A DNA stretch of 35,502 bases, from assembly GCA_002693775.1 (NCBI GenBank), contig NZRP01000032.1, positions 1 through 35,502 on the forward strand, in the 5' to 3' direction. How positions within the stretch are numbered: the first letter of the stretch is position 1; every line of letters starts with the position of its first letter. Position numbers and translations under genes: made by a program. The stretch is from Crocinitomicaceae bacterium. Its GTDB lineage: Bacteria; Bacteroidota; Bacteroidia; Flavobacteriales_D; Sanyastnellaceae. Under the pieces are notes generated by a model. It did no database searches, was not told the DNA's origin, and saw nothing but the letters and a program-made list of their open reading frames with translations. Shown piece after piece: positions 15,567 through 31,513 of the stretch.

Positions 15567-18500
15567 CTAGTTCACTACGAAGGTTGACGTAATCGTACCT
15601 CTTTCAGTAACTGCCTTTATTAGGTAGGTTCCAGGGCTAAGGTTAGAGATGTCAATTGTGGTTTGGTTGACAACAAGAACCCTCTCAACTTCTCTGCCAG
15701 CAAGGTCATATATCCTCATCTCATTACTCCCCTCCAGCGCCAAATTTAGGATATTTCTTGTAGGATTTGGATATAAAATCATGCTAGCACCTTCTTGCTC
15801 ATCAACCGAATTGATAATACTGACAATTATGCAAGCTGTGTCACCACTACACCCATACTCGTTAGTCTCAACAACGCACAATTGACCTTGAGCATCACCC
15901 CACCAAACTACATCCACCTCAGATGTCCCTTCCCCATGAGTCACATCGCCAAACGTCACAATCCACTCATAAGTGCTTCCATTAGTGTTTGGATAGCTAT
16001 ACACAACAAGCATGTCATTAAACGAACTCAGTGCACCCGTAATGCTGTATGTAACCACATAATTACACAAGCTATTATCAGGAATCGCCCCATCTACAAA
16101 GTTGCACGCCTCAGGATCTACACACCCATAACCATTACACGAACAATCTCCTTGTAAAAAGTCTCCTTCTGTAAAGGATAAACCGTCATTACAAGGATCC
16201 CCAGGCATTATACAAACATCCCCATCGATTGTTGCTTCAGGGTCAAAGTTGCATGCATCTGGATCCATGCATCCATAACAGTCATAACTACAAGTTCCGT
16301 TTTCCTCCGTTGCAATTGGGTTATAGTTACAAGCTAGCGCATCAGTACAACCAAAAATCTCCTCAGTATCACAAATACCATCCTCATCAAAATCATACTC
16401 GCAATTCCCTCCGCACACTCCTATCACATCCAGTATATTTCCGTCACAATCACAGTCCCCTTCAGGTATATCAGCACATCCACACTCGTAGATAGCGCCA
16501 GGGCCGTTACATACTCCACACTCGTCATAATCTCCAACACAGTCGTCTACGTCGTCACAGATTCCGTCCGCATCCTCGTCCGCAGAACAATCTCCACCAC
16601 ATACTCCAAGAGCATCTAGCTGATTTCCGTCACAATCACAATCGTCATTATCTATATACGTACATGAGTTGTCTTCGTAATCGGCGTTAGCATCATAGTT
16701 ACATGCAACAGGGTCAGTACAGCCTAGATCTAAACAGGAGTAGTCACATGAACCATCATCTATAGTAGCATCTGAGTTGAAGTTACAAGCAGAAGGGTCA
16801 AAACAACCTAGACATGAAATGAAGTCACAAGAACCATTGTCATTAGTTGCACCTTCTGAGTAGTTACATGCAGTTGAATCTGTACATCCAAAGATTTCGA
16901 AAGCATCACAAATGCCGTCGCCGTCATCGTCATCTACACATTCGCCTTCACAGTTGTATGGGAAGTTAGCATACTCACAAGTTCCGTCGTCGAAGTTTGC
17001 AGAGTTGTTGTAGTTACAAGCAAGTGGGTCTGTGCATCCAAAGTTTAAACAAGAGATAAAGTCACATGAACCATCGTCTATTGTTGCAGAAGGATTGTAG
17101 TTACATGCAAGAATAGATGTACAACCTAAACAAGATGTGTAATCACATGATCCGTCATTGTCAGTAGCTGATGCTGAGTAGTTACAAGCTTCTGAGTCAG
17201 TACATCCAGGGATTTCAAATTCGTTACAGATTCCGTCTGCGTCGACATCGTTAACACAATCGCCATTACAGTCGTATGGGAAGTTTGCGTATGTACAAGA
17301 TCCGTCGTCAAGGTTAGCGTCAGCATCGAAGTTACATGCGTTAGAGTCTGTACATCCAAATGTTAGACATGACACAAAGTCACATGAGCCGTCGTCAATT
17401 GTAGCTGAAGAATCGTAGTTACATGCAAATTCTGAAGTACATCCTGCACATGAAGTGTACTCACATGAGTCGTCGTCATAAACTGCTGAAGAGCTGAAGT
17501 TACATGCAGTGTCGTCTGTACAACCACAGATTGAGCCACCTGAACCGGCAGTTGTTGGGCCGTTGAAGTCGAATGAAACACGACTTACATCGTTTTGGTC
17601 TCCATGATTAAAGAACTGAGCGTGTATAGTTCCTGAAAGATCACCTTCAGTAGTAAGTTGAGCTATTAGGATTCTTCCGTCAGCGTCAGGATATGCGTTA
17701 GCGCTTGATGCTGGGTCTGGGTTAAGCGAGAACCAAGATCCTCCAACTGCATCAGAGATGTCGATGTTGCCTCCAGCTTCGAATTGAGAAACCCAAGAGA
17801 AGTTTGTTGACTCGATTAATTGAGGAGCTGATTCGTCTGACTCTGGTCCTTCGTCAAGGCCTATCGTTACCCAGCTATCGTATTGAAGTTCTGGGAAAGT
17901 AGGGTAGATAAATGGGATCATCTCTGAGCCCAGCACTGAACCAAACATGTGTTGGTAGAAGCTTGTCGAAGAACTAATGCTCAGTGGAGATTCGTCATCG
18001 CCAAACACTGCCGAAAGGTAGTCGTCTGTATGTGGTGTGGCGATATACATACGGTATGTAGTCATACCTGCAAGTTCTCCGTTAGTGTGTTGAGTAACAA
18101 CTTCTACATTTAGACTGTATCCCTCGTCTGTAGGAATGTAGCTTTCATTTGATTCTTCAATACATGAGCAGTAATCACATGATCCGTCATTGTCTGTTGC
18201 AGTGCTGTCGTAGTTACATGCTGAGGCATCATTACATCCTGTAATTTCGTACTCGTCACATATGCCGTCAGTATCAGCGTCGTTAATACAGTTTCCGTTA
18301 CAATCAAGTGGGAAGTCAGGCAGTTCGCAAGTACCGTTATCTACAGTTGCAAAATCATCGTAGTTACAGGCAGAAGGGTTAGTACATCCAAGGCAAGTAG
18401 TGAACTCACAAGACATGTCGTCGTATGAAGAGTTCTCGTCGTAGTTACAAGCAGAAGGGTCTGTACACCCAACGATTGTACATGAAGCGTACTCACAGGA

Positions 18501-19676
18501 TCCGTTGTCTATAATTGCATATGAATCAAAGTTACAGGCCGCTGGATCAGTACATCCATCACAATCGTAGTAGCAAGAGTCGTTAGAGTCTGTAGCACCA
18601 CTTTCAAAGTTACATGCTTCAGGGTCTGTACATCCAAAAAATTCGAAAGCGTCACAAATTCCGTCACCGTCATTATCGTTAATACATCCTCCATTACAAT
18701 CGTAAGGGAAGTTTGCGTACTCACATGTGCCGTCATCGTAATCCGCGACGGAGTCGAAGTTACAAGCTAGAGCGTCAGTACAGCCAAAGTTGAAACAAGA
18801 TATGAAGTCACATGACCCGTCGTCTTCTGTTGCGTTAGGATCGTAGTTGCAGGCGAGTTCTTGAGTACATCCGGCTGCCTCTTCGAAGTCACAAACGCCA
18901 TTATTGTTCTCATCAAGAATACAGTTGCCGTCACAGTCGTATCCTTCTTCAGCGAATACACAGTCTTCAGAAGATCCTAATCCACAGACATCAGCGAGGT
19001 TTACTAGGGTTCTTACCTCGTTTTCACTGTCGCCATTTACGAAGACTTGCATGTAGATTTGGCCTGTGAGATCACCAGAGGTGGTGAACTGGCCTATTAA
19101 AATTTCAAGATCGTCTCCAGCTACAGCGTTTGAGTAGTTAGAGAAAGTGTACCATCCTCCACCTACAACTCCAGTTAAATCAATGTCGTTTCCAGCTTCA
19201 AATGGATTTACCCATGGTTCGCTTCCTTCTTCAAGAATGCTTATAGATCCTTCTCCTGGTCCAGGGGCGTGCTCGATGCCTATCGTTACCCAGCTGTCAT
19301 ATGCTAGTGAAGGGAAGGGAGCTAAAAAGGCGGGGTTGATGCCGCTAGGAGTAACTCCTCCAATGTTGTGCTGGAAGAAATCTGTTGTTGATGAGAAATA
19401 TCCAGGGTGATCAGCGTCACCAATTAATGCACTTAGTACGTCGTCGCTATTAGCGAGTTGAGCGTAAACTCGGTATGTGGTCATACCGGTTAAGTCGTTC
19501 ATTCCCAATACTCCAGAGTGTATTGCAACTGTTTCAACTCTTATGCAATACGAGGGTGAAGGGGCGTAGTTACACGCATTTTCATCACTGCACGTCTGAG
19601 CATTTGCTGAAGATCCCAAAGAACCCATGGTTAACAGACAGACTGCAAGTAGATTAGATATGTAAGAGTGAGTCAT
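15567..19676 (-). CDS. Giant Cys-rich repeat protein exported by T9SS
   Basis: The start at 19676 was chosen because it gives a good signal peptide (MTHSYISNLLAVCLLTMG ... SANAQ); the frame extends to 19841 without one. From 19676 the protein has 1369 residues. It contains 19 copies of a roughly 22-residue unit, GCTDxxACNY followed by ATxDDGSC, plus one partial copy after the signal peptide. Several Asp-rich inserts of the type CNGDCVNDVDADGICNEFE resemble thrombospondin type-3 or EF-hand-like calcium loops. Two related beta-rich domains of about 190 residues (roughly 46-240 and 515-715) both carry GMTTYR, YDSWVTIG and FEAGxxIDxxxxVGGxW. Near the C-terminus are an Ig/PKD-like region (about 1205-1285) and a T9SS type A domain (about 1295-1369, MILYPNPTRNILNLAL). 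It is likely a rigid, calcium- or disulfide-stabilised surface or adhesion protein. That role is inference; the repeat is common in marine Bacteroidota but uncharacterised. Confidence 0.85.
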   Translation of the reverse strand: MTHSYISNLLAVCLLTMGSLGSSANAQTCSDENACNYAPSPSYCIRVETVAIHSGVLGMNDLTGMTTYRVYAQLANSDDVLSALIGDADHPGYFSSTTDFFQHNIGGVTPSGINPAFLAPFPSLAYDSWVTIGIEHAPGPGEGSISILEEGSEPWVNPFEAGNDIDLTGVVGGGWYTFSNYSNAVAGDDLEILIGQFTTSGDLTGQIYMQVFVNGDSENEVRTLVNLADVCGLGSSEDCVFAEEGYDCDGNCILDENNNGVCDFEEAAGCTQELACNYDPNATEDDGSCDFISCFNFGCTDALACNFDSVADYDDGTCEYANFPYDCNGGCINDNDGDGICDAFEFFGCTDPEACNFESGATDSNDSCYYDCDGCTDPAACNFDSYAIIDNGSCEYASCTIVGCTDPSACNYDENSSYDDMSCEFTTCLGCTNPSACNYDDFATVDNGTCELPDFPLDCNGNCINDADTDGICDEYEITGCNDASACNYDSTATDNDGSCDYCSCIEESNESYIPTDEGYSLNVEVVTQHTNGELAGMTTYRMYIATPHTDDYLSAVFGDDESPLSISSSTSFYQHMFGSVLGSEMIPFIYPTFPELQYDSWVTIGLDEGPESDESAPQLIESTNFSWVSQFEAGGNIDISDAVGGSWFSLNPDPASSANAYPDADGRILIAQLTTEGDLSGTIHAQFFNHGDQNDVSRVSFDFNGPTTAGSGGSICGCTDDTACNFSSSAVYDDDSCEYTSCAGCTSEFACNYDSSATIDDGSCDFVSCLTFGCTDSNACNFDADANLDDGSCTYANFPYDCNGDCVNDVDADGICNEFEIPGCTDSEACNYSASATDNDGSCDYTSCLGCTSILACNYNPSATIDDGSCDFISCLNFGCTDPLACNYNNSANFDDGTCEYANFPYNCEGECVDDDDGDGICDAFEIFGCTDSTACNYSEGATNDNGSCDFISCLGCFDPSACNFNSDATIDDGSCDYSCLDLGCTDPVACNYDANADYEDNSCTYIDNDDCDCDGNQLDALGVCGGDCSADEDADGICDDVDDCVGDYDECGVCNGPGAIYECGCADIPEGDCDCDGNILDVIGVCGGNCEYDFDEDGICDTEEIFGCTDALACNYNPIATEENGTCSYDCYGCMDPDACNFDPEATIDGDVCIMPGDPCNDGLSFTEGDFLQGDCSCNGYGCVDPEACNFVDGAIPDNSLCNYVVTYSITGALSSFNDMLVVYSYPNTNGSTYEWIVTFGDVTHGEGTSEVDVVWWGDAQGQLCVVETNEYGCSGDTACIIVSIINSVDEQEGASMILYPNPTRNILNLALEGSNEMRIYDLAGREVERVLVVNQTTIDISNLSPGTYLIKAVTERGTITSTFVVN

Positions 19677-19846
19677 TGTGAACACAATAGGATTAGGCAT
19701 CATATTAAGTTGGTTAATATCCGAAAAAAGCTCGATAAAACCCAATTTCTTAAAGATAAAACCTTGAAAGTTCTCCATAAAGTATAGATTGTAATTTAAT
19801 GATTTACGGTAAAAATTGGTGAATTGAAAATTGTAATCCAATTGCT

Positions 19847-20265: not shown

Positions 20266-23200
20266 ATGAAGAATTTACTTGCTATAATTGGAGTGTTTAT
20301 TGCGTTTAATGCAATGGGAGCAGATTCTACAGGTTATGATCCCAACGAGATTAGATTGAATTTCAATAAGTCGGAGTATTCAGAATACCAGCAGGTATTG
20401 CTTAGGAATAATTCTGCTTGGGAAGATTGGAATTCTTATGGTTGGATGGCTATGATGAGCCCTAAAACAGGATTGCCCCATAGGGCTTGGGGAAATGGTT
20501 TGGAAATTGAAGGAGCTGATCTCGAGGCGAAGCATGAAAATTTCTTGGAGGAGTTGCAGATTTTCGGGATTGATTTAATCTCAATTTCTTCAGAGATTCA
20601 TCAAAATCGTTCTTCTAAACACCATAGGTTTTTTCAAAGCCAAACCTTCAATGGCTACCCAGTTTTATTCTCTCAACTTCAGACTAAATGGAGGGATGGC
20701 AAGTTAGTTTTATGGAGCCTTGATTGGTACAATGATTTAGCAATTTCTGAGGCTGAAATATTAAGCGAAAATGAACTTCTGAATTCGGCAATTGAGGGCG
20801 TAGAATTTTCAAATATGGAGGTTGAAAATGAGGGGCTTATGGTGCTTCCAGGTGCTTATGCAGAAGGTGAAGACAGGCTTGTCAATGTGTTGAATATCAA
20901 AGGAAAAGTAGACGGACTAATTAAAAACTACAGAACGTTGGTGGATGCTCATTCTGGAAGGGTTTGGTCTAGGGAAAACAGAATAGTTCACCACGTTGGA
21001 AAAAAGGTTGTTCAACCTATGGGTTTCGTTAAAAAAGCAGAAAATAAGGGGCAGGAGTCTACGCTAGAATTAAATGAAGATTTTGCTCTAACTCCGCCTG
21101 TTGTTTCAGGGCAAACTAATGCGCTTGCCCACCCTATGTACCCATATGATGAGGCAGAAGTTTTAGCTATGCCGCACCTTAGGTTAGCGCTCAATGGAGA
21201 TGTGTATTATTCAGATGAAAATGGTGGCTTTGTTACAACAATAAATCAGTCACTTAATAATGTCCCGGTTAGCCTTGAAGGGCGTTGGTGTACAATCTAT
21301 ACTAATGGTATAACGCCTAATGGGAATTTGAATTTTAATAATGGATACAATGTTTTAACTGTTCCAGGAAACACTAAGGAGGCGAGTGCATATAGAAGCA
21401 CAAGTCTTATTCATGATCATATGAGAGACTGGCTTCCAGATTTCACTGACCTTGATTTTTCTCTAACTACAAATATTGATGTAGAGGGTGAATGCAATGC
21501 TTTTTTTGATGGAACTAGTATAAATTTTTACGACACAGGTGGTGGTTGTAATCCCACATCGTTAATTGCTGATGTTGTATACCACGAGTACGGTCACGGT
21601 ATTAACTCGTACTATTACAATAGCTTAGGTGCATGGTTTCAGAATGGAGCAATGAATGAGGGCTATGCGGATTTTTGGGCTATGAGTATGGGTGATATTG
21701 CTGAAATAGGGAAAGGGTTTTACACGGATAATAATGACGGAATCCGTAGATATGATATAGATCCCAAGGTGTACCCTGATGATATAGTAGGAGAGGTGCA
21801 TGCTGATGGCGAAATCATTGCAGGCGCATGGTACGACACGCATCTACTTATGGGAGGTGATTGGGATAATACACTTGAGCTTTTTGTTGATGCATATCCT
21901 GGACTTCAGGCAACAGCTGTTAATGGTGATGAAGGTCAAGCGTATACTGACGTGCTACTTGATGCACTTCAAGCCGACGATGATGATGGAGATTTGATGA
22001 ATGGAACTCCTAATGCAGCGGCTATTATTGAAGGATTTGATATACACGGAATTTCGCTCTTTAGTTATGCTGAAGTAGAACATTATCCAATGGAGTTTAG
22101 CGAAGCTGAAACTACTATTGAGATTAATGCTGAAGTGGAAATTGTATTTCCATATAATGTCTACTTTGACGGAGTTTACCTGTCGTACAGAACTAATCCG
22201 TCTGACTCCTATGAGACTGTTGTGATGGACCAAAACGATGATGAATTCACCTACCTTCTTTCAGGACTACCTGCAGGAACTGTAGTAGAATACTTTATTC
22301 ATATAGAGGATGTATTTGGGGGAGTAAGTGGTGTTACACCTATGGCAGCTAATTATCAATCAAATGCTAACCTACCATACCACGTAGTAGTTGGTTCATT
22401 CCCGTATCTGATAAATGATAGTGATGATTACGCTGATTTTGGAAACTGGCAACTTGGTACACCTCAGGATAACAATACAACTGGAGATTGGGAAGAGACA
22501 ATTCCAGTAGGTTCATATGTAGAAGCTGGAAATCCTGAAAGCGCGGTAGCTGCACCAGCAGATCACACTGTAGGATTTGCTGGTTACTGCTTCCTAACTG
22601 GAGTTAGCCCTGGAGCTGATGCAGGAATAGGAGAGAACGATGTGGATGGAGGGCACACAACTCTTGTAAGCCCATTAATAGATTTGACTGAGTACGAAAA
22701 CCCTGTTATGACTTACTGGAGGTGGTACGTAAATGCTCCTCCAACAGGTGCTAACCCTGCTAGTGATTGGTGGCAAGTAGAAATTTCTAGCGATGGAGGC
22801 TCTTCGTGGCAGTATATAGAAAACACGAGTCAGCAGGACGTTAAGTGGAGACGTAAAGCATTCAGGGTTGCTGATCACGTTGATCTAACTTCTGAATTTA
22901 TGATGCGATTCATCGCTTCAGATAGTACTACCGTAGGCGAATACCTCGATGGAGGCTCACTTGTTGAAGGCGCACTCGACGATATTATTCTTTACGATGT
23001 GGTTGACCCTAACAGCTCGACTTCAGATCTTGATGATGCTACTGATATTGTTTTAATGCCAAACCCGTCTTTTGATGTGGTAAGACTGCAAAACACTCTT
23101 AGCCTAACACCTTATCGAGTGTTTGACACGACAGGAAATCTAGTTCTTAAGGGATATTCTTCTGCTGCTGGTACAGCTTCTTTCTCAGTTACAAACCTAT

Positions 23201-23274
23201 CAAGCGGTATTTACACAGTTGAGGTAAGAGACTCAAATGCTAGGCGTACAGTTCTGAGATTCGAAGTACTCTAA
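20266..23274 (+). CDS. Secreted zinc metallopeptidase (M36-like, HExxH) with T9SS domain
   Basis: This 1002-residue protein starts with a signal peptide (MKNLLAIIGVFIAFNAMG, cleavage near residue 19). An N-terminal region of about 230 residues looks like an FTP/PepSY-type propeptide (LVDAHSGRVWSRENRI near 230). The catalytic domain has VVYHEYGHGIN (His440, Glu441, His444) and NEGYADFWAMS with Glu465 as the third zinc ligand, 25 residues on, as in gluzincins such as fungalysin (M36). VHADGEIIAGAWYDTHLLMG fits the later conserved His/Asp region. A beta-rich region (about 600-900) precedes a T9SS type A domain (about 929-1002, IVLMPNPSFDVVRLQN ... LSSGIYTVEV). It probably degrades extracellular protein, alongside the S8 protease at 4188. 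The ATG overlaps the last base of the decayed frame before it. Confidence 0.88.
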   Translation: MKNLLAIIGVFIAFNAMGADSTGYDPNEIRLNFNKSEYSEYQQVLLRNNSAWEDWNSYGWMAMMSPKTGLPHRAWGNGLEIEGADLEAKHENFLEELQIFGIDLISISSEIHQNRSSKHHRFFQSQTFNGYPVLFSQLQTKWRDGKLVLWSLDWYNDLAISEAEILSENELLNSAIEGVEFSNMEVENEGLMVLPGAYAEGEDRLVNVLNIKGKVDGLIKNYRTLVDAHSGRVWSRENRIVHHVGKKVVQPMGFVKKAENKGQESTLELNEDFALTPPVVSGQTNALAHPMYPYDEAEVLAMPHLRLALNGDVYYSDENGGFVTTINQSLNNVPVSLEGRWCTIYTNGITPNGNLNFNNGYNVLTVPGNTKEASAYRSTSLIHDHMRDWLPDFTDLDFSLTTNIDVEGECNAFFDGTSINFYDTGGGCNPTSLIADVVYHEYGHGINSYYYNSLGAWFQNGAMNEGYADFWAMSMGDIAEIGKGFYTDNNDGIRRYDIDPKVYPDDIVGEVHADGEIIAGAWYDTHLLMGGDWDNTLELFVDAYPGLQATAVNGDEGQAYTDVLLDALQADDDDGDLMNGTPNAAAIIEGFDIHGISLFSYAEVEHYPMEFSEAETTIEINAEVEIVFPYNVYFDGVYLSYRTNPSDSYETVVMDQNDDEFTYLLSGLPAGTVVEYFIHIEDVFGGVSGVTPMAANYQSNANLPYHVVVGSFPYLINDSDDYADFGNWQLGTPQDNNTTGDWEETIPVGSYVEAGNPESAVAAPADHTVGFAGYCFLTGVSPGADAGIGENDVDGGHTTLVSPLIDLTEYENPVMTYWRWYVNAPPTGANPASDWWQVEISSDGGSSWQYIENTSQQDVKWRRKAFRVADHVDLTSEFMMRFIASDSTTVGEYLDGGSLVEGALDDIILYDVVDPNSSTSDLDDATDIVLMPNPSFDVVRLQNTLSLTPYRVFDTTGNLVLKGYSSAAGTASFSVTNLSSGIYTVEVRDSNARRTVLRFEVL

Positions 23275-23285
23275 CATTTAGTTCT

Positions 23286-25748
23286 CTAAATACGCTTTAG
23301 GGAATCAGTTGGCAGCCATCCTACATTTCCATTCTCAAGCCTTATCTCTGTCCACCCGCCATCTTCACTTATGATGCATCCCTTTGCGCCTTCATGTAGG
23401 TGGAAAAGCTTAACGCCATTATTCCCTGGAGTGCTCATGACGTCAATTTTCTCCTCCATAACGATACCGCATGCAGAGCTCAACACCCTGTTGTGAGTGT
23501 AGTAAAAGAATACTGAGAATATTATAGAAAGGACAAGAAGGGCTGCTGCTGAAGGTTTGGCGAATGCACTAACCACGCTATCCTTCCACTTAAGCCGGAT
23601 AGCAATTAGACTAAACCCTAATGTCCAAGTTACAAGGCTAAGTAAGCACCAAACTCCATAAAGCTTACCTGCAAAAAGTACAGCCAACATCTTGTCAATT
23701 CCTACACCAGGCAGAGGTTCTATTTTATCAATAGCTCTCAAATCAGCAAGCAGCATATTAGCTCTTAAATCGTCGTTCAAGGGATCTATTAATGAAGCTC
23801 TTTCATAATGCAGAATCGCCTTACCTACATTTTCCAATTTGTAATGAGCATTGCCCAGATTGTACTCTAGCTCAAAGCATCTATACTCCTTCTCAATTTC
23901 AGAGTAAAGCTCCACAGCTCCTTCATAGTCGCCATTCATATATGCCGCGTTTGCACTAGTGAAAATCTGATCGTAATCTGCATGAGTTCCACTAGCTAAG
24001 GTTAAACCAGGTATACTCATCAGAATAACAACAATAACAAAGCTCCAATTAGCAACCTTGAGCCTGCTGTCACTTCCCTTCGAAAGTTCCCTTGCTTTAC
24101 TGATGCTCAAGTCTAAATCCTCAACGGTACCAGGTGCATACCTCGCCATCTCACAATTCTTCATCAGCCCATCCCATGCACTCGCTTCGTCTATGCTCAG
24201 ATTCTCACTCAGTTTATGAGCAGCCGAAGCTCGTGTAAATGAACTTCTGCCGCACCCCAACTTCGAGCACAAGTAAACCTCAATGGCTTCACCCAATTGA
24301 GTATAATTAGAACAGCTGTTAAGCGATTTGTTAAACACCTTCAGGGCCCTTTTATGTCGTGTCCCCAAAGAGTCCTTCTCCTCGGCAGTTTTGCGTCTTC
24401 TAGCTACAAAAGCTACCCCAGCTAACAACGGCCCAAATAAATACAGCAACAACACACTAGTAGTACCAGACCCATTTTCTTTATATGGAGCAAAATGTCC
24501 GTGCTCAGTAGCAATATGTCTTATATCATGGTTGATGACCTGTACCCCAGACTTGGGGCTATACATTGTAGTGCCTTCCTCGTTTTCTCCACGGTGAATA
24601 CTTATGTCCCCGCCTGCAACAACATCGCTTAAGTACTTGTCAGTATTGTAATCGAAGTAGCTGTATTTGATGTTGGGCAGTTCATAATCGCCGGGAGCTC
24701 TAGGGATTACCGCGTATTTATAAGTCCTTCTACCAGATTCTCCACTTGGTGATATATTAATTTGATCTAAAATCTCTGGGTCAAAAACTTCAAACTCAGA
24801 AGCCCATTCAATCGCCGGCTCCCTCAACAATTTTAGATTCCCCTTTCCCGAATAGACCACCTCAAAATTGAAGGCCTGATTAACGTCAACACTATCAACA
24901 TTCACCTTCACTTCGACCTGCAAATTCTCGAAAGTCCCAAGGAAATCATTAGGTTTTCCAGCTGGTAGAGGCTCAACAATAATGCTTGCAGGATTAGAAA
25001 AACCCTCAACTTCTTTCTGGTTGAATCTACTATATCCAACAACACCTAAATACTGGAAACCATCCAACTTAAACTCACCTGTTTGCTGAGGGAAAGCAAC
25101 TACTTCATTTATGATCTTCTCATTGTAATCAATCCCATTGATGTTTCTTATGCGTGGCTTTTCGTTTGGATCTCTCGGGTCAAGAGTTTCTTTCCAAAAT
25201 CCCTCTAGTTCAGGAATGTCTGATTGGTATTCCTGTTTAGGATATTGGCAATACATCTTATATTGGACTAAAACGGGCTCTCCCAAATGAACGCGCCTTT
25301 TGCTAATCGACATCTCTGCCCCAACATCTGTAAAGCCCAATTTCGAGGCGTCATTTTCTTCTCCTACAGAGATCTTAAATGGTTTAGAGCTGAGAATCCC
25401 CTCACTAGTGTTTAGCTTAATAGCAGGGACCTCAATGTCCTTATTTGCTATTACTTGGTAAGTGTAGGTGTAGAGTAAAAGGGAAGTGCTTTTGAAATTT
25501 ACACTTTGGTATTGCTTAGATACAGCTGGGCCTCTCAAGTACCTAAGGCCGTCAATGCTTGGCATAGGAATGTTGCCGCCAGAAGGAGAGCAATTTGTTA
25601 GCTTCAATGTTAAGTTAACTCTTGCCTTTTGTTGAACAGGATTCTTGTCAATGGTGCAACTAACGCTAGCGTCCTGTGCTAAGGCGAAGTTAAAAGGGAG
25701 TAACACTACTGCTAAAGCTCCAATATATTTCAGTGCTCTTATCATCAC
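23286..25748 (-). CDS. batD: BatD-BatE fusion protein of the aerotolerance operon
   Basis: This is one frame of 820 residues. Residues 1-560 are BatD-like: a signal peptide (VVLLPFNFALAQ), repeated beta-sandwich domains (for example VSKQYQSVNFKSTSLLLYTY, ISKRRVHLGEPVLVQYKMY), one membrane helix (about 428-450, LLLYLFGPLLAGVAFVARRR) and a cytoplasmic helical tail. Residues 563-585 are a second hydrophobic stretch (SFVIVVILMSIPGLTLA) that looks like the former signal peptide of BatE. TPR repeats follow (ANAAYMNGDYEGAVELYSEI, LEYNLGNAHYKLENVGKAIL), then two membrane helices and an SH3-like end (MSTPGNNGVKLFHLHEGAKG ... GNVGWLP). In most Bacteroidota batD and batE are separate genes, so a fusion is inferred. 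It overlaps batC by four bases (ATGA), the last gene of the operon. Confidence 0.85.
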   Translation of the reverse strand: MMIRALKYIGALAVVLLPFNFALAQDASVSCTIDKNPVQQKARVNLTLKLTNCSPSGGNIPMPSIDGLRYLRGPAVSKQYQSVNFKSTSLLLYTYTYQVIANKDIEVPAIKLNTSEGILSSKPFKISVGEENDASKLGFTDVGAEMSISKRRVHLGEPVLVQYKMYCQYPKQEYQSDIPELEGFWKETLDPRDPNEKPRIRNINGIDYNEKIINEVVAFPQQTGEFKLDGFQYLGVVGYSRFNQKEVEGFSNPASIIVEPLPAGKPNDFLGTFENLQVEVKVNVDSVDVNQAFNFEVVYSGKGNLKLLREPAIEWASEFEVFDPEILDQINISPSGESGRRTYKYAVIPRAPGDYELPNIKYSYFDYNTDKYLSDVVAGGDISIHRGENEEGTTMYSPKSGVQVINHDIRHIATEHGHFAPYKENGSGTTSVLLLYLFGPLLAGVAFVARRRKTAEEKDSLGTRHKRALKVFNKSLNSCSNYTQLGEAIEVYLCSKLGCGRSSFTRASAAHKLSENLSIDEASAWDGLMKNCEMARYAPGTVEDLDLSISKARELSKGSDSRLKVANWSFVIVVILMSIPGLTLASGTHADYDQIFTSANAAYMNGDYEGAVELYSEIEKEYRCFELEYNLGNAHYKLENVGKAILHYERASLIDPLNDDLRANMLLADLRAIDKIEPLPGVGIDKMLAVLFAGKLYGVWCLLSLVTWTLGFSLIAIRLKWKDSVVSAFAKPSAAALLVLSIIFSVFFYYTHNRVLSSACGIVMEEKIDVMSTPGNNGVKLFHLHEGAKGCIISEDGGWTEIRLENGNVGWLPTDSLKRI

Positions 25749-26575
25749 CAGTCCTTTTCAATTTTCTTTTTCTTTCCATTGCCTCGAGCTCTCATAACTT
25801 TTTCCTGGATTTTTCCCTCCTCGTTTTCTAAATTTTCTAAGATACGCTCCATCTCTTCCATAGAAAGTTGCTTTTCCTGAGGTTTAGATTCCTGCTGATT
25901 TTTCTCGCTCTCGTCCTCTTGTTCACTGTCATCTTCCTGTTCGCTGTCATCTTCCTGTTCGCCATCGTCTTCCTGCTCGCCGTCATCTTCCTGCTCGCCG
26001 TCATCTTCCTGTTCGCCGTCATCTTCCTGCTCGCCATTATCCTCATTCTCGCTGTCTTCACTATCCTCACCCTGCTCACCGTCATCCTGCTTCTCTTGCT
26101 GCTGTTCTTGCTGCTGTTCTTGTTGCTGTTCTTGTTGCTGCTGCATTTTGTATGCGTTTGCAAGATTGTGACGAGCTTCTGGGAAGTTGGGGTTGTTTCT
26201 TAGAGCCGACTTGTATGCATCGATTGCTGATGAAGGGTCGGAGTTCATAAGAGATATGTTGCCCTTATTGTACCAAGAATTTGCAATGATGTCAGAGTTT
26301 TCACTCATCTCAATCGCTTCAGAAAACACGTTGGAAGCGTCTTCAAATTGCTCTGCTTCGAGTAGGGATCTTCCTCTGTTATATGTGGCGATGTCTTCAT
26401 AACCCTCCAAGTTTGAGCCCGATGCAAACGACATGGTTGCTTTTTCCAATTCACTGCCCCTGAACTGTTCAACTCCATCGATGAGCTTTTTCTTTAGTTC
26501 CATATTGGTTTGGGATAAAGAAAGAGTAGGGGCAAAACCCCAAATCATAACAACTATGTAAACCCAATTTTTCAT
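25745..26575 (-). CDS. batC: BatC, TPR protein with acidic/Gln low-complexity tail
   Basis: This 276-residue protein has a signal peptide (IVVMIWGFAPTLSLSQ) followed by TPR-type helices to about residue 130 (NSWYNKGNISLMNSDPSSAI, YKSALRNNPNFPEARHNLAN). Next are a Gln-rich block with EQQQ units and a run of seven GEQEDD/SEQEDD units. The conserved BatC-type end is MEEMERILENLENEEGKIQE ... GNGKKKKIEKDW. TPRs bind partner proteins; in the Bat system BatC is thought to contact the other periplasmic parts. The gene overlaps batB and batD by four bases each, so translation is probably coupled. The low-complexity run is coded by near-identical 18-base units and is probably length-variable. Confidence 0.88.
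   Translation of the reverse strand: MKNWVYIVVMIWGFAPTLSLSQTNMELKKKLIDGVEQFRGSELEKATMSFASGSNLEGYEDIATYNRGRSLLEAEQFEDASNVFSEAIEMSENSDIIANSWYNKGNISLMNSDPSSAIDAYKSALRNNPNFPEARHNLANAYKMQQQQEQQQEQQQEQQQEKQDDGEQGEDSEDSENEDNGEQEDDGEQEDDGEQEDDGEQEDDGEQEDDSEQEDDSEQEDESEKNQQESKPQEKQLSMEEMERILENLENEEGKIQEKVMRARGNGKKKKIEKDW
25910..26040. repeat. 18-base tandem repeat in batC coding for GEQEDD
   Basis: The unit is an 18-base sequence ending CATCTTCCTGCTCGC on the plus strand, with minor variants such as TGTTCGC. It occurs seven times, coding for GEQEDD or SEQEDD. The adjacent stretch (about 26090-26150) has 12-base units coding for EQQQ. Both periods are multiples of three, so copy-number change would preserve the frame. 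Confidence 0.8.
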
Positions 26576-27681
26576 GCCTTTATTCTCGGTTTAGGTATTA
26601 CAGATTCAATTATTAGTAGAGCTATGCATAAGATTGCCAAGTACTGGAATTTATGATCGTAGTCAGTAAATCTTAGGTCAGTTGACTTGCTCTTTTCAAG
26701 CTTGTTGATTGCGTTAATTGTTGGAGTAATGTCTAAGTATGAATTACTTGCCTTAGTGAAAACGCCTCCGCCTGCTTGAGCAGTAGAAAGGAGTGTTGAT
26801 TCGTCTAGTTTAGAGACAACTGGTTGGCCAGAACTGTCTTCTTTGAATCCTATTTTCTTTCCGTTCCTGTTGAACCTAGGAATGGGGCCACCTTCAGTGG
26901 ATGCAAGTCCCATTACGTGTACAGTTGTTCCCGCATCAAGTGCCGCCGCCGCAGCAGCTACGGGATCGTCTTCGTGGTTTTCGCCATCGGTGATAACCAC
27001 AATTGCTCTGCCGTTTGCTGGGGCGTTCTCAAACGCCTTCATGCCCACATCAATGGCATTGCCAATTGCTGTGCCTTGGCTTGAGATCAATGATGTAGAT
27101 ACGGTGTTTAAGAAAATCTTAAGCGAAGTGTAATCTGAAGTGAGTGGACATTGCACAAAGGCGTCGCCTGCAAAAACAACAATTCCCACTCTGTCTGAGC
27201 CAAGCTTTGAGAGGATGCGGTTTACAGTTTGGTGTGCTATCTCTAATCTAGGCGGACCCAAATCCTCTGCCATCATGCTGTTGCTGACGTCTATTGCTAT
27301 AATGATATCTGATCCTTTAGATTCGATTTCTACGAGTTTGCTACCCACTTTGGGCCCCAGAAGTGCTAATACTCCAAATGCAAAGGCTACACGCCAAATA
27401 AAAAATCTCCAACTCTGCCTTCCCACTGAAAACCCTCTAATTACTCCATTAAGAAGATGATGGTCAGCAAGCCTTTCTACAGCTTTAACCTTCCACCTTA
27501 AGTGTATTAGATATGCAACCGTTATTACAGGAATCACCGTAAGACCCCACCACCAATAGCCTCTATGCCATTCAAGGTGAGGAGCAAATTCTTCTAAAAC
27601 TAAAGCGCAAGCCACAATTGTCACTGCGAAAACGATCTCAGCTAAAACCAAACCTATGACGCTGTACTTGTACCTCATCAT
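26572..27681 (-). CDS. batB: BatB, von Willebrand factor A membrane protein
   Basis: This 369-residue protein has two N-terminal membrane helices (about 9-30 and 44-60), a further one near residues 95-110, a VWA domain in the middle and a C-terminal helix (YLAILCIALLIIESVI). The metal-ion adhesion site is intact: IIAIDVSNSM (Asp131, Ser133, Ser135), a Thr in LTSDYTSLKIF and VVITDGENH. Together with BatA it makes the paired VWA proteins of the Bat system, inserted in the inner membrane with the VWA domain outside the bilayer. It overlaps batA and batC by four bases each. Its role in oxidative or envelope stress tolerance is based on Bacteroides bat mutants. Confidence 0.92.
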   Translation of the reverse strand: MMRYKYSVIGLVLAEIVFAVTIVACALVLEEFAPHLEWHRGYWWWGLTVIPVITVAYLIHLRWKVKAVERLADHHLLNGVIRGFSVGRQSWRFFIWRVAFAFGVLALLGPKVGSKLVEIESKGSDIIIAIDVSNSMMAEDLGPPRLEIAHQTVNRILSKLGSDRVGIVVFAGDAFVQCPLTSDYTSLKIFLNTVSTSLISSQGTAIGNAIDVGMKAFENAPANGRAIVVITDGENHEDDPVAAAAAALDAGTTVHVMGLASTEGGPIPRFNRNGKKIGFKEDSSGQPVVSKLDESTLLSTAQAGGGVFTKASNSYLDITPTINAINKLEKSKSTDLRFTDYDHKFQYLAILCIALLIIESVIPKPRIKA

Positions 27682-28736
27682 GAAATGCTTTTGATTAAAG
27701 TAAAACTTAGCACCTTCTCAAGCAGTAAAGCTCCTAGAGCAATCAACATGAAGCCTATGTAGGCCTCAGTCTTACGTTGATATCTTAAAACATTAAATCT
27801 CGTCTTTTCAAGAACATCAATCTCTTCGTAGATATCTCCTAATTTTTCAGCATTTGTAGCTCTGAAATATTTACCTCCAGTTCTATCGGCAATATTCATC
27901 AGTATATCCTCGTCGATTTTAACGTCAACCCAATCAAAGATTATCTCATCACCCCTTAAATAAGCAGGGCTATAAGCTCTTCCAATCGATCCCACTCCTA
28001 TGGTGTAGATTCTGATGTTATTCAACTCTGCTAGTTGAGCTGCATTAAGAGGGTCGATATTTCCAGCATTATTCATTCCATCAGTAAGTAGAATGATAAC
28101 CCTGCTTTTTGCTTCAGAATTTCTCAGCCTGTTTACCGAAGTTGCCAGCCCCATTCCTATTGCTGTCCCGCCTTCGAGCAGTCCGGTTTGTAGGGAATTA
28201 ATACCATTCTTTACAACTACATGGTCAGTTGTAACTGGCACCTGAGTGTATGCCTCAGCTTCATAAGCAACAATTCCAATTCTGTCGTGAGGCCTGCTAT
28301 CGATGAATTCAATAGCTACAGCTTTCGATTCCTCTAATCTGTTTGGAGAAAAATCTTGGCTTAGCATGGACACACTAACATCCATTGCAATAACCATATC
28401 TATACCCTCACTAGTTAGGTCTTCTACGCTATCAGAAGTTTGGGGTCTAGCAATAGCAATTATCAGAACCCCAAGAGTGAAAGTCCTTAAAGCAAAGGGA
28501 ATCTCAACAATTACATTATTCAAAACTGACCCAACGGTTCTCACATTGAGCCTCGCCCTAGTTTCTGTCAATCTTCCTCTTGAAATAACCCTAAACACTA
28601 CATAGAGCAGTGGAAGTGCCATTAAATAAAAGACCCACAAGCTTTCCCATTCATATCTAGAGTTTGCTCTTAGAGCAATTCCTAAAACTGCAAGTGCAGA
28701 AATTATATGTGGAGTAAGCACTCTAACCCACCTCAT
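27678..28736 (-). CDS. batA: BatA, von Willebrand factor A membrane protein
   Basis: This 352-residue protein has N-terminal helices (VLTPHIISALAVLGIAL, VFYLMALPLLYVVFRV), a third helix about 84-97, a VWA domain (about 110-300) and a C-terminal helix (FMLIALGALLLEKVL). The MIDAS motif is AMDVSVSM (Asp119, Ser121, Ser123) with GGTAIGMGLA and ILLTDGMNN. The layout matches BatB, its paralogue next door. It overlaps the upstream DUF4381-like gene by 14 bases and the downstream batB by four bases, which indicates coupled translation. It probably forms a complex with BatB and is acted on by the MoxR ATPase at the head of the operon. Confidence 0.92.
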   Translation of the reverse strand: MRWVRVLTPHIISALAVLGIALRANSRYEWESLWVFYLMALPLLYVVFRVISRGRLTETRARLNVRTVGSVLNNVIVEIPFALRTFTLGVLIIAIARPQTSDSVEDLTSEGIDMVIAMDVSVSMLSQDFSPNRLEESKAVAIEFIDSRPHDRIGIVAYEAEAYTQVPVTTDHVVVKNGINSLQTGLLEGGTAIGMGLATSVNRLRNSEAKSRVIILLTDGMNNAGNIDPLNAAQLAELNNIRIYTIGVGSIGRAYSPAYLRGDEIIFDWVDVKIDEDILMNIADRTGGKYFRATNAEKLGDIYEEIDVLEKTRFNVLRYQRKTEAYIGFMLIALGALLLEKVLSFTLIKSIS

Positions 28737-29643
28737 CTCTCTTCATTGTGTTTTTCACAAACTCTATGCTTGTGTTTAGCGCCTTTACATGCAGATCATC
28801 CGGAGCCTTACTCTTAGCAAACTTGATAGAGTCGCCCATAAGAAGCACTTGAATAACTGCTTGCTTATCTCCTTCGCTTGCATCAATATTTCCAATCAAT
28901 GCGACAGCCTCACTAGATGTTTTGTCTAATGATTTGATGAAGAATCTTGAATCTATATACTCCCTCAAAGTCATACTTAACTCTACTTGAAAGTCTTTCT
29001 CGCCGCCAATAAGCCAAGCCTTACTATCCCTCATTGCTTCTAACTTCTCTAATGCTATAACATGAGGAGGTATAACGATTTCAGGTTTTTCTAAAACTCC
29101 TTTAGCCCTTCCTCTCACAAGTTTTCTAATAGCCCAAACCATCCCCAACACAAATACTAACCCCAACAACACGTAAACCAAATACGGCAACAACTGTCTT
29201 ACTCGTTCCTCTAAAGTCCAGTCCACCTCAATTATATCCCTGTGCTGTGCAATAGCGTTGGGGTCCTCAGTTCTCGTTGGTACCTTTTGAATTTGCAGTC
29301 CAGGAAGCTGCGCAAACCCTGAATCCCAAGCAGTTACCACCCAGCTCTTTTCAATTACAAAATCCCATTCATCAGGATCGTTTTCGCTAGTAGTAACAGT
29401 GTCAGGCCCTAAAATCTCAAGCACTTCTAACCCTCCAGGAATAGAATCAATCCAAGTTGGAAAGCTGTCTAAACTCAAAGTATTTTCTTCAGCACTTACT
29501 CCAAGCCTTGCAGTTATAGTGACTCTTTCACCCCAGCCAATTCTTCCCGTATCAGCGGAGAATTTCACTTGAGCATGAGTAAAGCTTGAAGACATGAAAA
29601 ACCATACGGATATGGCTAAATATTTAATTATTTTGTTATCCAC
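28723..29643 (-). CDS. DUF4381-like Bat-operon membrane protein
   Basis: A start at GTG 29643 gives MDNKIIKYLAISVWFFMSSS followed by FTHAQ, a good signal peptide, and overlaps the DUF58 stop by 8 bases. An ATG at 29676 is possible but adds 11 unlikely residues. The periplasmic part (about 25-150) is beta-rich (FSADTGRIGWGERVTITARL), then comes one membrane helix (about 155-178, LVYVLLGLVFVLGMVWAI), then a cytoplasmic helical domain of about 120 residues (VIALEKLEAMRDSKAW ... LREYIDSRFFIKSLDKTSSE). This layout fits the DUF4381 or BatD-like protein usually found between DUF58 and batA in these operons. The exact role is unknown. Confidence 0.7.
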   Translation of the reverse strand: MDNKIIKYLAISVWFFMSSSFTHAQVKFSADTGRIGWGERVTITARLGVSAEENTLSLDSFPTWIDSIPGGLEVLEILGPDTVTTSENDPDEWDFVIEKSWVVTAWDSGFAQLPGLQIQKVPTRTEDPNAIAQHRDIIEVDWTLEERVRQLLPYLVYVLLGLVFVLGMVWAIRKLVRGRAKGVLEKPEIVIPPHVIALEKLEAMRDSKAWLIGGEKDFQVELSMTLREYIDSRFFIKSLDKTSSEAVALIGNIDASEGDKQAVIQVLLMGDSIKFAKSKAPDDLHVKALNTSIEFVKNTMKRDEVG

Positions 29644-30502
29644 GTCTATCAAATAACTGCATAAGTGGTTTAACAATATCCCTGTCAGTTCTGATAACAG
29701 TATGGTCTACTCCGGATTTAGAGAACATCTTTTCTAGAGCGTCTTTTCTTCTCAATTCTTCAGCCTTGTATATTGCTCTTTTCTTTTTCGATTGAGTGAA
29801 TAGAAATTCTTCTTCAGAAGTTTCAGGGTCTATGATGGGTAGGAATCCAACATTTGGCAGGTCTGTATCTATAGGATCTTCTATTTGTAATGCAACAAAG
29901 TCGTGTTTCTTGCCAGCTCTTCTCAGTAGGTTTTCATAGTCATCTCCCATGAAGTCGCTAAGCATAAAGGCTACTGTTCTTTTCTTCATTGCAGATAGAA
30001 ACTGTTCTAGTGCCCCGCTGATATCTGTGCCTCGTCCTATAGGTTGTATTTCTAATAGCTCTCGGATGATTCTCAGAACATGAGATCTTCCTTTTTTAGG
30101 AGGAATGAATTGTTCTATTCTATCTGAAAACAGAATTGCTCCCACCTTGTCGTTGTTTCCAAGTGCGCTGAATCCTATAATAGCAGACAGCTCAGTTATT
30201 CTGTCGCGCTTTGTTGCTCCTTTTGTTCCTACGTCAATAGATCCACTAACGTCAGCGATAATGAAAACCGTGAGCTCTCTTTCCTCTTCAAAAACCTTCA
30301 AGTAAGGAGTGCCCATTCTTGCGGTAACGTTCCAATTGATAGCTCTTATTTCATCGCCAGGAGCGTATTCTCTGTTTTCGCTAAAAGCCATGCCACGACC
30401 CTTAAAGGCACTGTGGTATTGACCGGAAAATATCCGGTCGCTTAGGCCGCGAGATTTGATCTCAACCCTTCTAACTCTTTTTAGTAATTCAGCAGTATCC
30501 AT
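29636..30502 (-). CDS. DUF58 domain protein of the MoxR-Bat operon
   Basis: This 288-residue cytoplasmic protein without helices is a DUF58 protein. The conserved block FKGRGMAFSENREYAPGDEI followed by RAINWNVTAR lies at about 34-62. Then comes a VWA-like fold with FIIADVSGSID (Asp84, Ser86, Ser88) and the DFMGDDYENL region (about 182-191). In other bacteria DUF58 proteins pair with MoxR ATPases and VWA proteins; that is the context here, as it follows moxR by nine bases. It possibly links the ATPase to BatA and BatB. No enzymatic activity is established for the family. Confidence 0.9.
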   Translation of the reverse strand: MDTAELLKRVRRVEIKSRGLSDRIFSGQYHSAFKGRGMAFSENREYAPGDEIRAINWNVTARMGTPYLKVFEEERELTVFIIADVSGSIDVGTKGATKRDRITELSAIIGFSALGNNDKVGAILFSDRIEQFIPPKKGRSHVLRIIRELLEIQPIGRGTDISGALEQFLSAMKKRTVAFMLSDFMGDDYENLLRRAGKKHDFVALQIEDPIDTDLPNVGFLPIIDPETSEEEFLFTQSKKKRAIYKAEELRRKDALEKMFSKSGVDHTVIRTDRDIVKPLMQLFDRRG

Positions 30503-30511
30503 TTAGGCTTT

Positions 30512-31513
30512 TTAAGGCACTACTACCATGTCCATAATCTCAGTCACAATTTGTTCCTGAGTGATATTCTCTGCTTCAGCTTCGAAAGTCAAACCAACTC
30601 TGTGACGTAGAACGTCCATTGCTACAGCTCTTACATCCTCAGGAGTTACATAGCCTCTGTGGTTTAAGAAAGCATGAGCTTTTGCAGCTATACCAAGGCC
30701 TATGCTAGCTCTAGGTGATGCACCGAATGAGATTAGCTCCGTCAAATGGCCTAGCCCGATATTTTCAGGGGCACGAGTAGCAAATACTAAATCGATTATG
30801 TACTTCTCAACCTTTTCATCCATATATATGCTCTTTACAAGTTCCCTTGCTTCAAGAATCTGCTTTTTAGTGACTACAGCTTTAGGTGTGTGAAGACCTC
30901 CGACTTGAAGGTTTGCTCGTAAGATTGCTTGCTCTTCTTCTTTTGTAGGGTATCCAATTACAACTTTAAGAAGGAATCTATCTACTTGAGCTTCTGGAAG
31001 GGGATATGTGCCTTCTTGTTCTACTGGGTTTTGGGTAGCTAGTACTAGGAAGGGTTTGGGCATTTTGTGAGTTTCACTGCCTATAGTTACCTGTCTTTCT
31101 TGCATGGCTTCGAGGAGAGCTGATTGCACTTTAGCTGGAGCTCTATTTATCTCATCTGCAAGTACGAAGTTTGCAAATACAGGTCCTTTTTTCACCTTGA
31201 ATGATTCCTCCTTAGGGTTGTAAATCAGGGTGCCGACAACGTCTGCCGGAAGAAGGTCTGGAGTGAATTGTATCCTGCTGAAATCAGCTTTAATGGTCTT
31301 GCTTAAGCTGTTTATTGCTAGTGTTTTTGCTAGGCCGGGAACGCCCTCGAGAAGGATGTGCCCGTTAGCTAATAGGCCTATTAGCAGCTTGTCTACCATT
31401 TGGGTTTGACCTATGATAGTCTTTCCTATCTCTGATCTAATAAGGTCAGTTGTTGCGCTTGCCTTTTCTACCTGCTCATTAAGCAATTGAATATCTGGTG
31501 CTGTATCAATCAT
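30512..31513 (-). CDS. moxR: MoxR-family AAA+ ATPase
   Basis: This 333-residue protein contains the MoxR-type AAA+ module: Walker A EGVPGLAKT (57-64, Lys63), Walker B ANFVLADEINRAP (Asp120, Glu121), sensor-like LATQNPVEQEGTYPLPEAQV, and the C-terminal lid (YVTPEDVRAVAMDVLRHRVG). MoxR ATPases act as chaperone-like partners for VWA proteins. Here it heads the seven-gene operon that ends in batD/E, the expected arrangement in Bacteroidota. Its length is normal for the family. Confidence 0.95.
   Translation of the reverse strand: MIDTAPDIQLLNEQVEKASATTDLIRSEIGKTIIGQTQMVDKLLIGLLANGHILLEGVPGLAKTLAINSLSKTIKADFSRIQFTPDLLPADVVGTLIYNPKEESFKVKKGPVFANFVLADEINRAPAKVQSALLEAMQERQVTIGSETHKMPKPFLVLATQNPVEQEGTYPLPEAQVDRFLLKVVIGYPTKEEEQAILRANLQVGGLHTPKAVVTKKQILEARELVKSIYMDEKVEKYIIDLVFATRAPENIGLGHLTELISFGASPRASIGLGIAAKAHAFLNHRGYVTPEDVRAVAMDVLRHRVGLTFEAEAENITQEQIVTEIMDMVVVP

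Follow-up and report, generated by a model that had tools for sequence, protein, structure and literature searches.

We found that the last gene of the Bat operon in the window, the whole stretch of 35,502 nucleotides of Crocinitomicaceae DNA that was analysed, encodes BatD and BatE in one protein, as the initial annotation had proposed from the intact reading frame. That this fusion gene is real is certain. In the window's own genus (g1), comparison of sequences suggests that the former signal peptide of BatE serves as a permanent membrane anchor within an uncut single chain, a reading to which we give a probability of about 0.57.

The gene is a single uninterrupted frame of 820 codons in the ORF list and its translation (Table 1), with two candidate starts: a GTG within a GTGA that overlaps the batC stop by four bases, and an ATG that overlaps it by one. 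The Pfam BatD model (PF13584) matched the protein with 93 bits against a curated cut-off of 24.1, and two stretches in the genome scored above this cut-off. A Pfam TPR match covered residues 629-657, and among 21 fused homologues scanned SH3_3 was found in 15 (best E = 1.9 × 10−8) and SH3_16 in 18. Sequence and AlphaFold together predict the traits of BatD, namely a signal peptide, a beta ectodomain, one membrane helix and a cytoplasmic tail. The C-terminal half had been expected to match BatE, and it does: it carries TPRs, two membrane helices and an SH3 end, and is homologous to the separate BatE that adjoins batD in relatives, while no model under the name BatE came back from Pfam or NCBIfam for the fusion protein. 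The AlphaFold model (pLDDT 76, pTM 0.35) has a beta ectodomain that the BatD helix connects to a helical cytoplasmic domain, followed by TPR helices, a hairpin of two helices and a beta-stranded end. For the ectodomain Foldseek gave only general Ig-like matches, and a profile search against solved structures returned TPR proteins, weakly one SH3 chain, and no match for the BatD part.

Table 1 Features of the batD-batE fusion gene and of the operon that it closes, in window coordinates. A slash marks the predicted cleavage site.
Feature	Position	Strand	Details and basis
batD-batE fusion gene	23286..25748	(-)	start GTG 25748 (820 aa) or ATG 25745 (819 aa)
BatD signal peptide	25677..25748	(-)	sequence; ends FALA/QD, obeys the Bacteroidetes Q rule (available text of PMC5837995)
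BatD periplasmic part, Ig-like beta domains	24465..25676	(-)	Pfam BatD; AlphaFold strands; Foldseek Ig-like matches
BatD transmembrane helix, then RRRK	24402..24455	(-)	sequence; AlphaFold helix 426-457 (819-aa numbering)
BatD cytoplasmic helical domain, conserved RYAPG motif, variable linker at its end	24057..24401	(-)	relatives' junctions; AlphaFold
Junction, former BatE signal peptide (VANWSFVIVVILMSIPGLTLA/SG), now internal hydrophobic segment	23988..24056	(-)	comparison with separate BatE
BatE TPR region	23733..23957	(-)	Pfam; structure-profile search; AlphaFold
BatE first membrane helix	23598..23660	(-)	sequence; AlphaFold helix 683-719
BatE second membrane helix	23499..23552	(-)	sequence; AlphaFold helix 725-756
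C-terminal SH3-like domain	23295..23459	(-)	SH3 family matches in homologues; AlphaFold
batC: signal peptide, TPR, acidic repeat tail	25745..26575	(-)	Pfam/NCBIfam; repeat scan
batB (VWA)	26572..27681	(-)	Pfam/NCBIfam
batA (VWA)	27678..28736	(-)	Pfam/NCBIfam
Operon protein of no named family; by eye, a signal peptide and a membrane helix	28723..29676	(-)	ORF list
DUF58 protein	29636..30502	(-)	Pfam
MoxR-type AAA+ ATPase	30512..31513	(-)	Pfam

The operon runs MoxR, DUF58, an unnamed protein, BatA, BatB, BatC and the fusion, all on one strand, with four-base overlaps between batA and batB and between batB and batC, and this order was unchanged in the three genus loci scanned with their flanks (L052, L057, L059). 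The unnamed protein matched no Pfam or NCBIfam family, yet was present in 11 of 11 operons scanned; by eye, its signal ends in THA/Q. In batC, an 18-base tandem repeat of 6.4 copies (25920-26056) accounts for part of the acidic tail of Glu, Asp and Gln. A gene for an M36-like metallopeptidase with a T9SS sorting domain runs towards the fusion gene and ends 11 bases from it (20266-23274, forward strand; the Pfam match is just at the cut-off), and a long ORF on the reverse strand (15567-19841) carries many GCTDxxACNYDxxA-type repeats and a secretion-type tail (by eye).

We searched 114 genomes of the family for the fusion. Eleven of the 14 genomes of g1, the window included, gave a match and all 11 crossed the junction without a stop; in genome G110 of this genus the junction reads through and the match ends with the contig, and the three genomes without a match (G101, G105, G106) are 61-85% complete. 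Identity to the window's fusion was 46-48% in nine genus members compared. In the second fused genus, g21, all 13 matching genomes crossed the junction (the BatD start lies on another contig in G090 and G100), and the proposed search of relatives thus recovered the fusion in every matching genome of both genera. A stop and restart in close relatives, which had been named as grounds for doubting the fusion, was seen only outside the genus: in many other genera of the family (g5, g7, g10, g14-g20) batD and batE are two or more neighbouring matches. Among named database records, 23 of 33 loci were fused in one frame, all of them labelled as Flavobacteriales or Bacteroidetes MAGs and two as Crocinitomicaceae. 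None of 60 genomes that we picked from other families of the order, among the matches listed, and then searched again showed a stop-free fusion; in two of them (G114, G141) batD and batE share a frame that a single TAA interrupts within the match. In several genomes of the order-level family f9 (e.g. G131, G137, G164, G182) BatD was matched but BatE was not, which may reflect loss or strong divergence of BatE. Three further families of the phylum hold stop-free fusions among the matches listed, with counts that are lower bounds and one family searched by sample: f22 (at least four genomes of g120, two of g257, one of g251 and one of g248, the last cut by a contig end), f37 (one of two genomes) and f63 (six of six, one ended by a contig end). 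The other g251 genome has batD and batE as a separate pair.

Comparison with the ends of separate BatD and the starts of separate BatE placed the junction, previously put near residue 560, at about residues 548-590. Of the eight segments compared within the genus from residue 455 onwards, it showed the lowest conservation, with a mean majority fraction of 0.52, compared to 0.61 for the linker before it and 0.70-0.85 for the remaining segments. A hydrophobic, signal-like stretch is kept at the beginning of BatE in every fused junction inspected, and we regard it, in agreement with the initial annotation, as the former BatE signal peptide because it is located where separate BatE proteins begin.

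In an uncut chain, the BatD part would be exported by its own signal peptide via the Sec route and would cross the inner membrane once. The cytoplasmic helical domain would follow the BatD helix, and the chain would then cross back from inside to outside through the former BatE signal peptide, beyond which would lie periplasmic TPRs, the two-helix hairpin and a periplasmic SH3 domain. The product would have four membrane segments and would hold BatD and BatE at 1:1 within the MoxR-Bat membrane system, of which it is probably a member. Positive residues flank the predicted cytoplasmic sides of the membrane segments (by eye), and this charge pattern and the fusion are consistent with a topology in which the BatD tail is inside and the TPR and SH3 domains are outside. 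The fusion had also been offered as direct evidence for the arrangement of BatD and BatE, which overstates a result that is consistent with one topology.

The strongest alternative, which we consider possible but appreciably short of even odds, is a processed precursor: the fusion would be translated once and cut by signal peptidase I at the retained BatE site, giving an ordinary BatE and a BatD extended at its C-terminus by one more membrane segment. Such cut precursors have a bacterial precedent in the cytochrome b/c1 precursor FbcH of Bradyrhizobium. We compared junctions using one sequence per identical C-terminal sequence (38 fused and 53 separate; 30 and 46 in an earlier set), with incomplete ends or unreadable helices dropped from single groups (e.g. 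L081, L044 and L082 in the matrix test). Small residues at −3/−1, the signal peptidase I rule, were present under a permissive setting in 11 of 11 genus junctions (TLA/SG in the window) and in 37 of 38 distinct junctions from eight lineages, compared to 26 of 37 second BatE helices of the same proteins, so signal peptidase could still release BatE; if it did, the fusion would fix stoichiometry at the level of synthesis alone. The simple rule was nevertheless given up as proof of cleavage because the second BatE helix often passes it (67 of 88 cases). An earlier, differently set rule was passed by 27 of 30 junctions versus 17 BatD helices, 13 first BatE helices and 5 second BatE helices, each of 30.

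A cleavage matrix trained on positions −4 to −1 of 70 BatD signal peptides gave median scores of 4.28 for junctions (n = 30), 4.06 for separate BatE starts (n = 45), 3.09 for second BatE helices (n = 74) and 2.08 for both first BatE (n = 74) and BatD helices (n = 75). Junctions scored above the second helix (P = 8 × 10−4) and like separate BatE (P = 0.57), as expected of a precursor, though P values for junctions here and below are optimistic because the sequences share ancestry. When +1 was included, junctions (2.38) fell below separate BatE (6.08; P = 0.01), which speaks against the precursor, and stayed above the second helix (0.83).

Glutamine at +1, the Bacteroidetes Q rule, characterizes a mean of 71% of predicted signal-peptidase substrates according to the available text of PMC5837995, and is hence typical rather than obligatory. 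It was found in 1 of 11 g1 junctions, the window's not among them, although BatD signal peptides of these genomes retain it (10 of 10 readable), and in 0 of 13 g21 junctions; own BatD signal peptides had it in 20 of 20 readable cases across both genera. Separate BatE proteins had Q in 11 of 11 cases in g18 and 5 of 8 in g19 (16 of 19 in these two nearest genera), and in 1 of 7 in other genera of the family. The lack of Q in g21 says little, since deeper unfused genera mostly lack it. Junctions of the other fusions retained Q-rule sites in f63 (5/5), f37 (1/1) and f22 (2/8), in line with processing, and in g257 of the last family Q was missing on BatD too in both genomes.

We assessed hydrophobicity with Kyte-Doolittle 19-mers and a Hessa-type scale on the 11 distinct g1 junctions. 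These had a higher Kyte-Doolittle median than 19 separate BatE signal peptides from the two nearest genera (2.00 vs. 1.42, P = 2.5 × 10−4) and did not differ from their own second BatE helix (P = 0.74), while Hessa-type values were 0.60 vs. 4.09 (P = 5 × 10−5), again like the second helix (P = 0.69). Compared to their own BatD signal peptides, P was 0.15 on the Kyte-Doolittle and 0.001 on the Hessa-type scale. The window's own segment resembled a helix less than the genus median does (Hessa-type 1.62), and its site is preceded by P-G, a feature of signal peptides. Junctions of g21 were signal-peptide-like (Kyte-Doolittle 1.59; P = 1.6 × 10−5 vs. their own second helix), those of f63 and f37 were signal-like on both scales, and those of f22 were mostly helix-like. 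AlphaFold was rejected as a judge of the junction, where both models had low confidence: the first showed a short helix only, with no full-length helix (pLDDT about 42), and a second, built from genus-only rows, was poorer and no clearer (pLDDT 33-45).

The higher hydrophobicity and the missing Q at +1 in g1 favor an uncleaved anchor over a precursor in this genus, and in f37 and f63 the precursor appears the better reading. The earlier proposal that the signal peptide had become an internal anchor fixing stoichiometry is supported in part: in g1 the segment has shifted towards a membrane helix, and its uncut state is likely rather than certain, as small residues at −3/−1 are kept.

BatB and BatC are also joined in one frame in g21 (L061, L062, L064, L065, L066, L067, L069, L076) and g19 (L022, L023, L029, L030). 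The internal BatC signal peptide had a small residue followed by Q in all 12 distinct loci with the junction in the DNA examined (eight from g21, four from g19), whereas none of the 13 g21 BatD-BatE junctions has this Q. Bat fusions can therefore keep cleavable internal signals, a point in favor of the precursor. In two loci from outside the phylum (L080, L082) BatB and BatC are joined without such a Q. Downstream of the signal, BatC has no membrane helix and BatE has two (by eye), which fits a cut that would be needed for BatC and unnecessary for BatE. We tentatively propose, at somewhat less than even odds, that Bat fusions form a natural series. If the released protein has to be free (soluble BatC) or stayed free (BatE of f37 and f63), the Q site would be kept and the reading frame would act as a precursor that splits itself. 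If the downstream protein has an anchor in any case (BatE in g1), the site would decay, turning signal into anchor and yielding an obligate 1:1 BatD-BatE chain.

Additional translation of a separate BatE from an internal start at the junction is improbable. In 9 of 11 genus sequences (by eye; L002-L004, L006-L011) the hydrophobic stretch is closely preceded by a methionine that may be the former BatE start, but the window and L005 lack one, and the window's TTG at codon 547 with GAGG upstream is set against the lack of any ATG or GTG between codons 535 and 576. An ATG 3-16 codons before the core occurred in 4 of 11 genus junctions, 10 of all 38 and 0 of 6 from f37 and f63, and promoter- or terminator-like signals showed no excess over shuffled sequences. 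A sequencing or assembly error joining two genes, which the stop and restart in other genera of the family might suggest, is excluded, since every matching genus genome, from separate assemblies, reads through and 23 of the 33 loci in named records are fused as well.

Unfused relatives indicate how the fused frame may have arisen. In 25 of 26 unfused family loci read at base level the batE ATG overlaps the batD stop (ATGA, −4; the exception is L035), and the frame offset between the genes was 2 in all 26, such that changing one base in the overlap would be enough to fuse the two. In the ancestor, batD and batE probably shared these four bases, and one small frame change would have removed stop and restart together. 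Elsewhere (L090-L099, L112-L116) batD and batE share a frame and are separated by a stop and a few codons, so that losing this stop would fuse them. The BatD + BatE tree placed g21 outside the group of g1, g18, g19 and g14. A single fused clade in the family was rejected, the fused label needing two changes (p-AU = 0.0041, on a tree that has a long g21 branch and odd letter make-up in some rows, the window's included, and that does not distinguish gain from loss of the fusion). Across the phylum at least four fusion events would have occurred, with tree support covering g1 and g21 only.

Fusions of this kind are already known from Borrelia: the available text of PMC5700661 describes B. burgdorferi BB0170 and B. 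hermsii BH0170 as one protein homologous to BF2416 and BF2415 of B. fragilis. As judged from that published description, these proteins likewise join BatD, TPR and SH3 and cluster with MoxR, VWA and DUF58 proteins, but belong to spirochaetes, a different lineage. The separate BatD and BatE of the Bacteroides aerotolerance operon share domains, order and operon with the fusion, whose junction corresponds to BatD end and BatE start, and differ in being two genes (overlapping, abutting or a short way apart in the loci read) with an N-terminal signal peptide on BatE. In Leptospira biflexa, BatB and BatC are joined and further bat fusions are reported (available text of PMC3557215); like those of g21 and g19, where the second signal peptide is left inside, this joins adjacent Bat genes, but a different pair, and the g21 and g19 junctions keep a small residue and Q. 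Within the open-access literature searched, we found no report of a BatD-BatE fusion from Bacteroidota. The present analysis adds the fate of the signal peptide to a known kind of fusion, of which this is another case that evolved independently.

How the Bat system works is described as unknown in the available text of a 2025 paper (PMC12718326), and any role of this operon in oxygen or stress tolerance would follow by analogy from the literature on other species. Since the same two neighbors have been joined repeatedly, BatD and BatE may well act next to each other, and the joining also indicates an orientation for the BatE TPR and SH3 domains. The fate of the signal hints at which Bat parts still need cutting apart. 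Fused forms provide structural studies with a ready-made tethered BatD-BatE pair, and whether junctions that look cut and those that look uncut truly differ can be tested directly.
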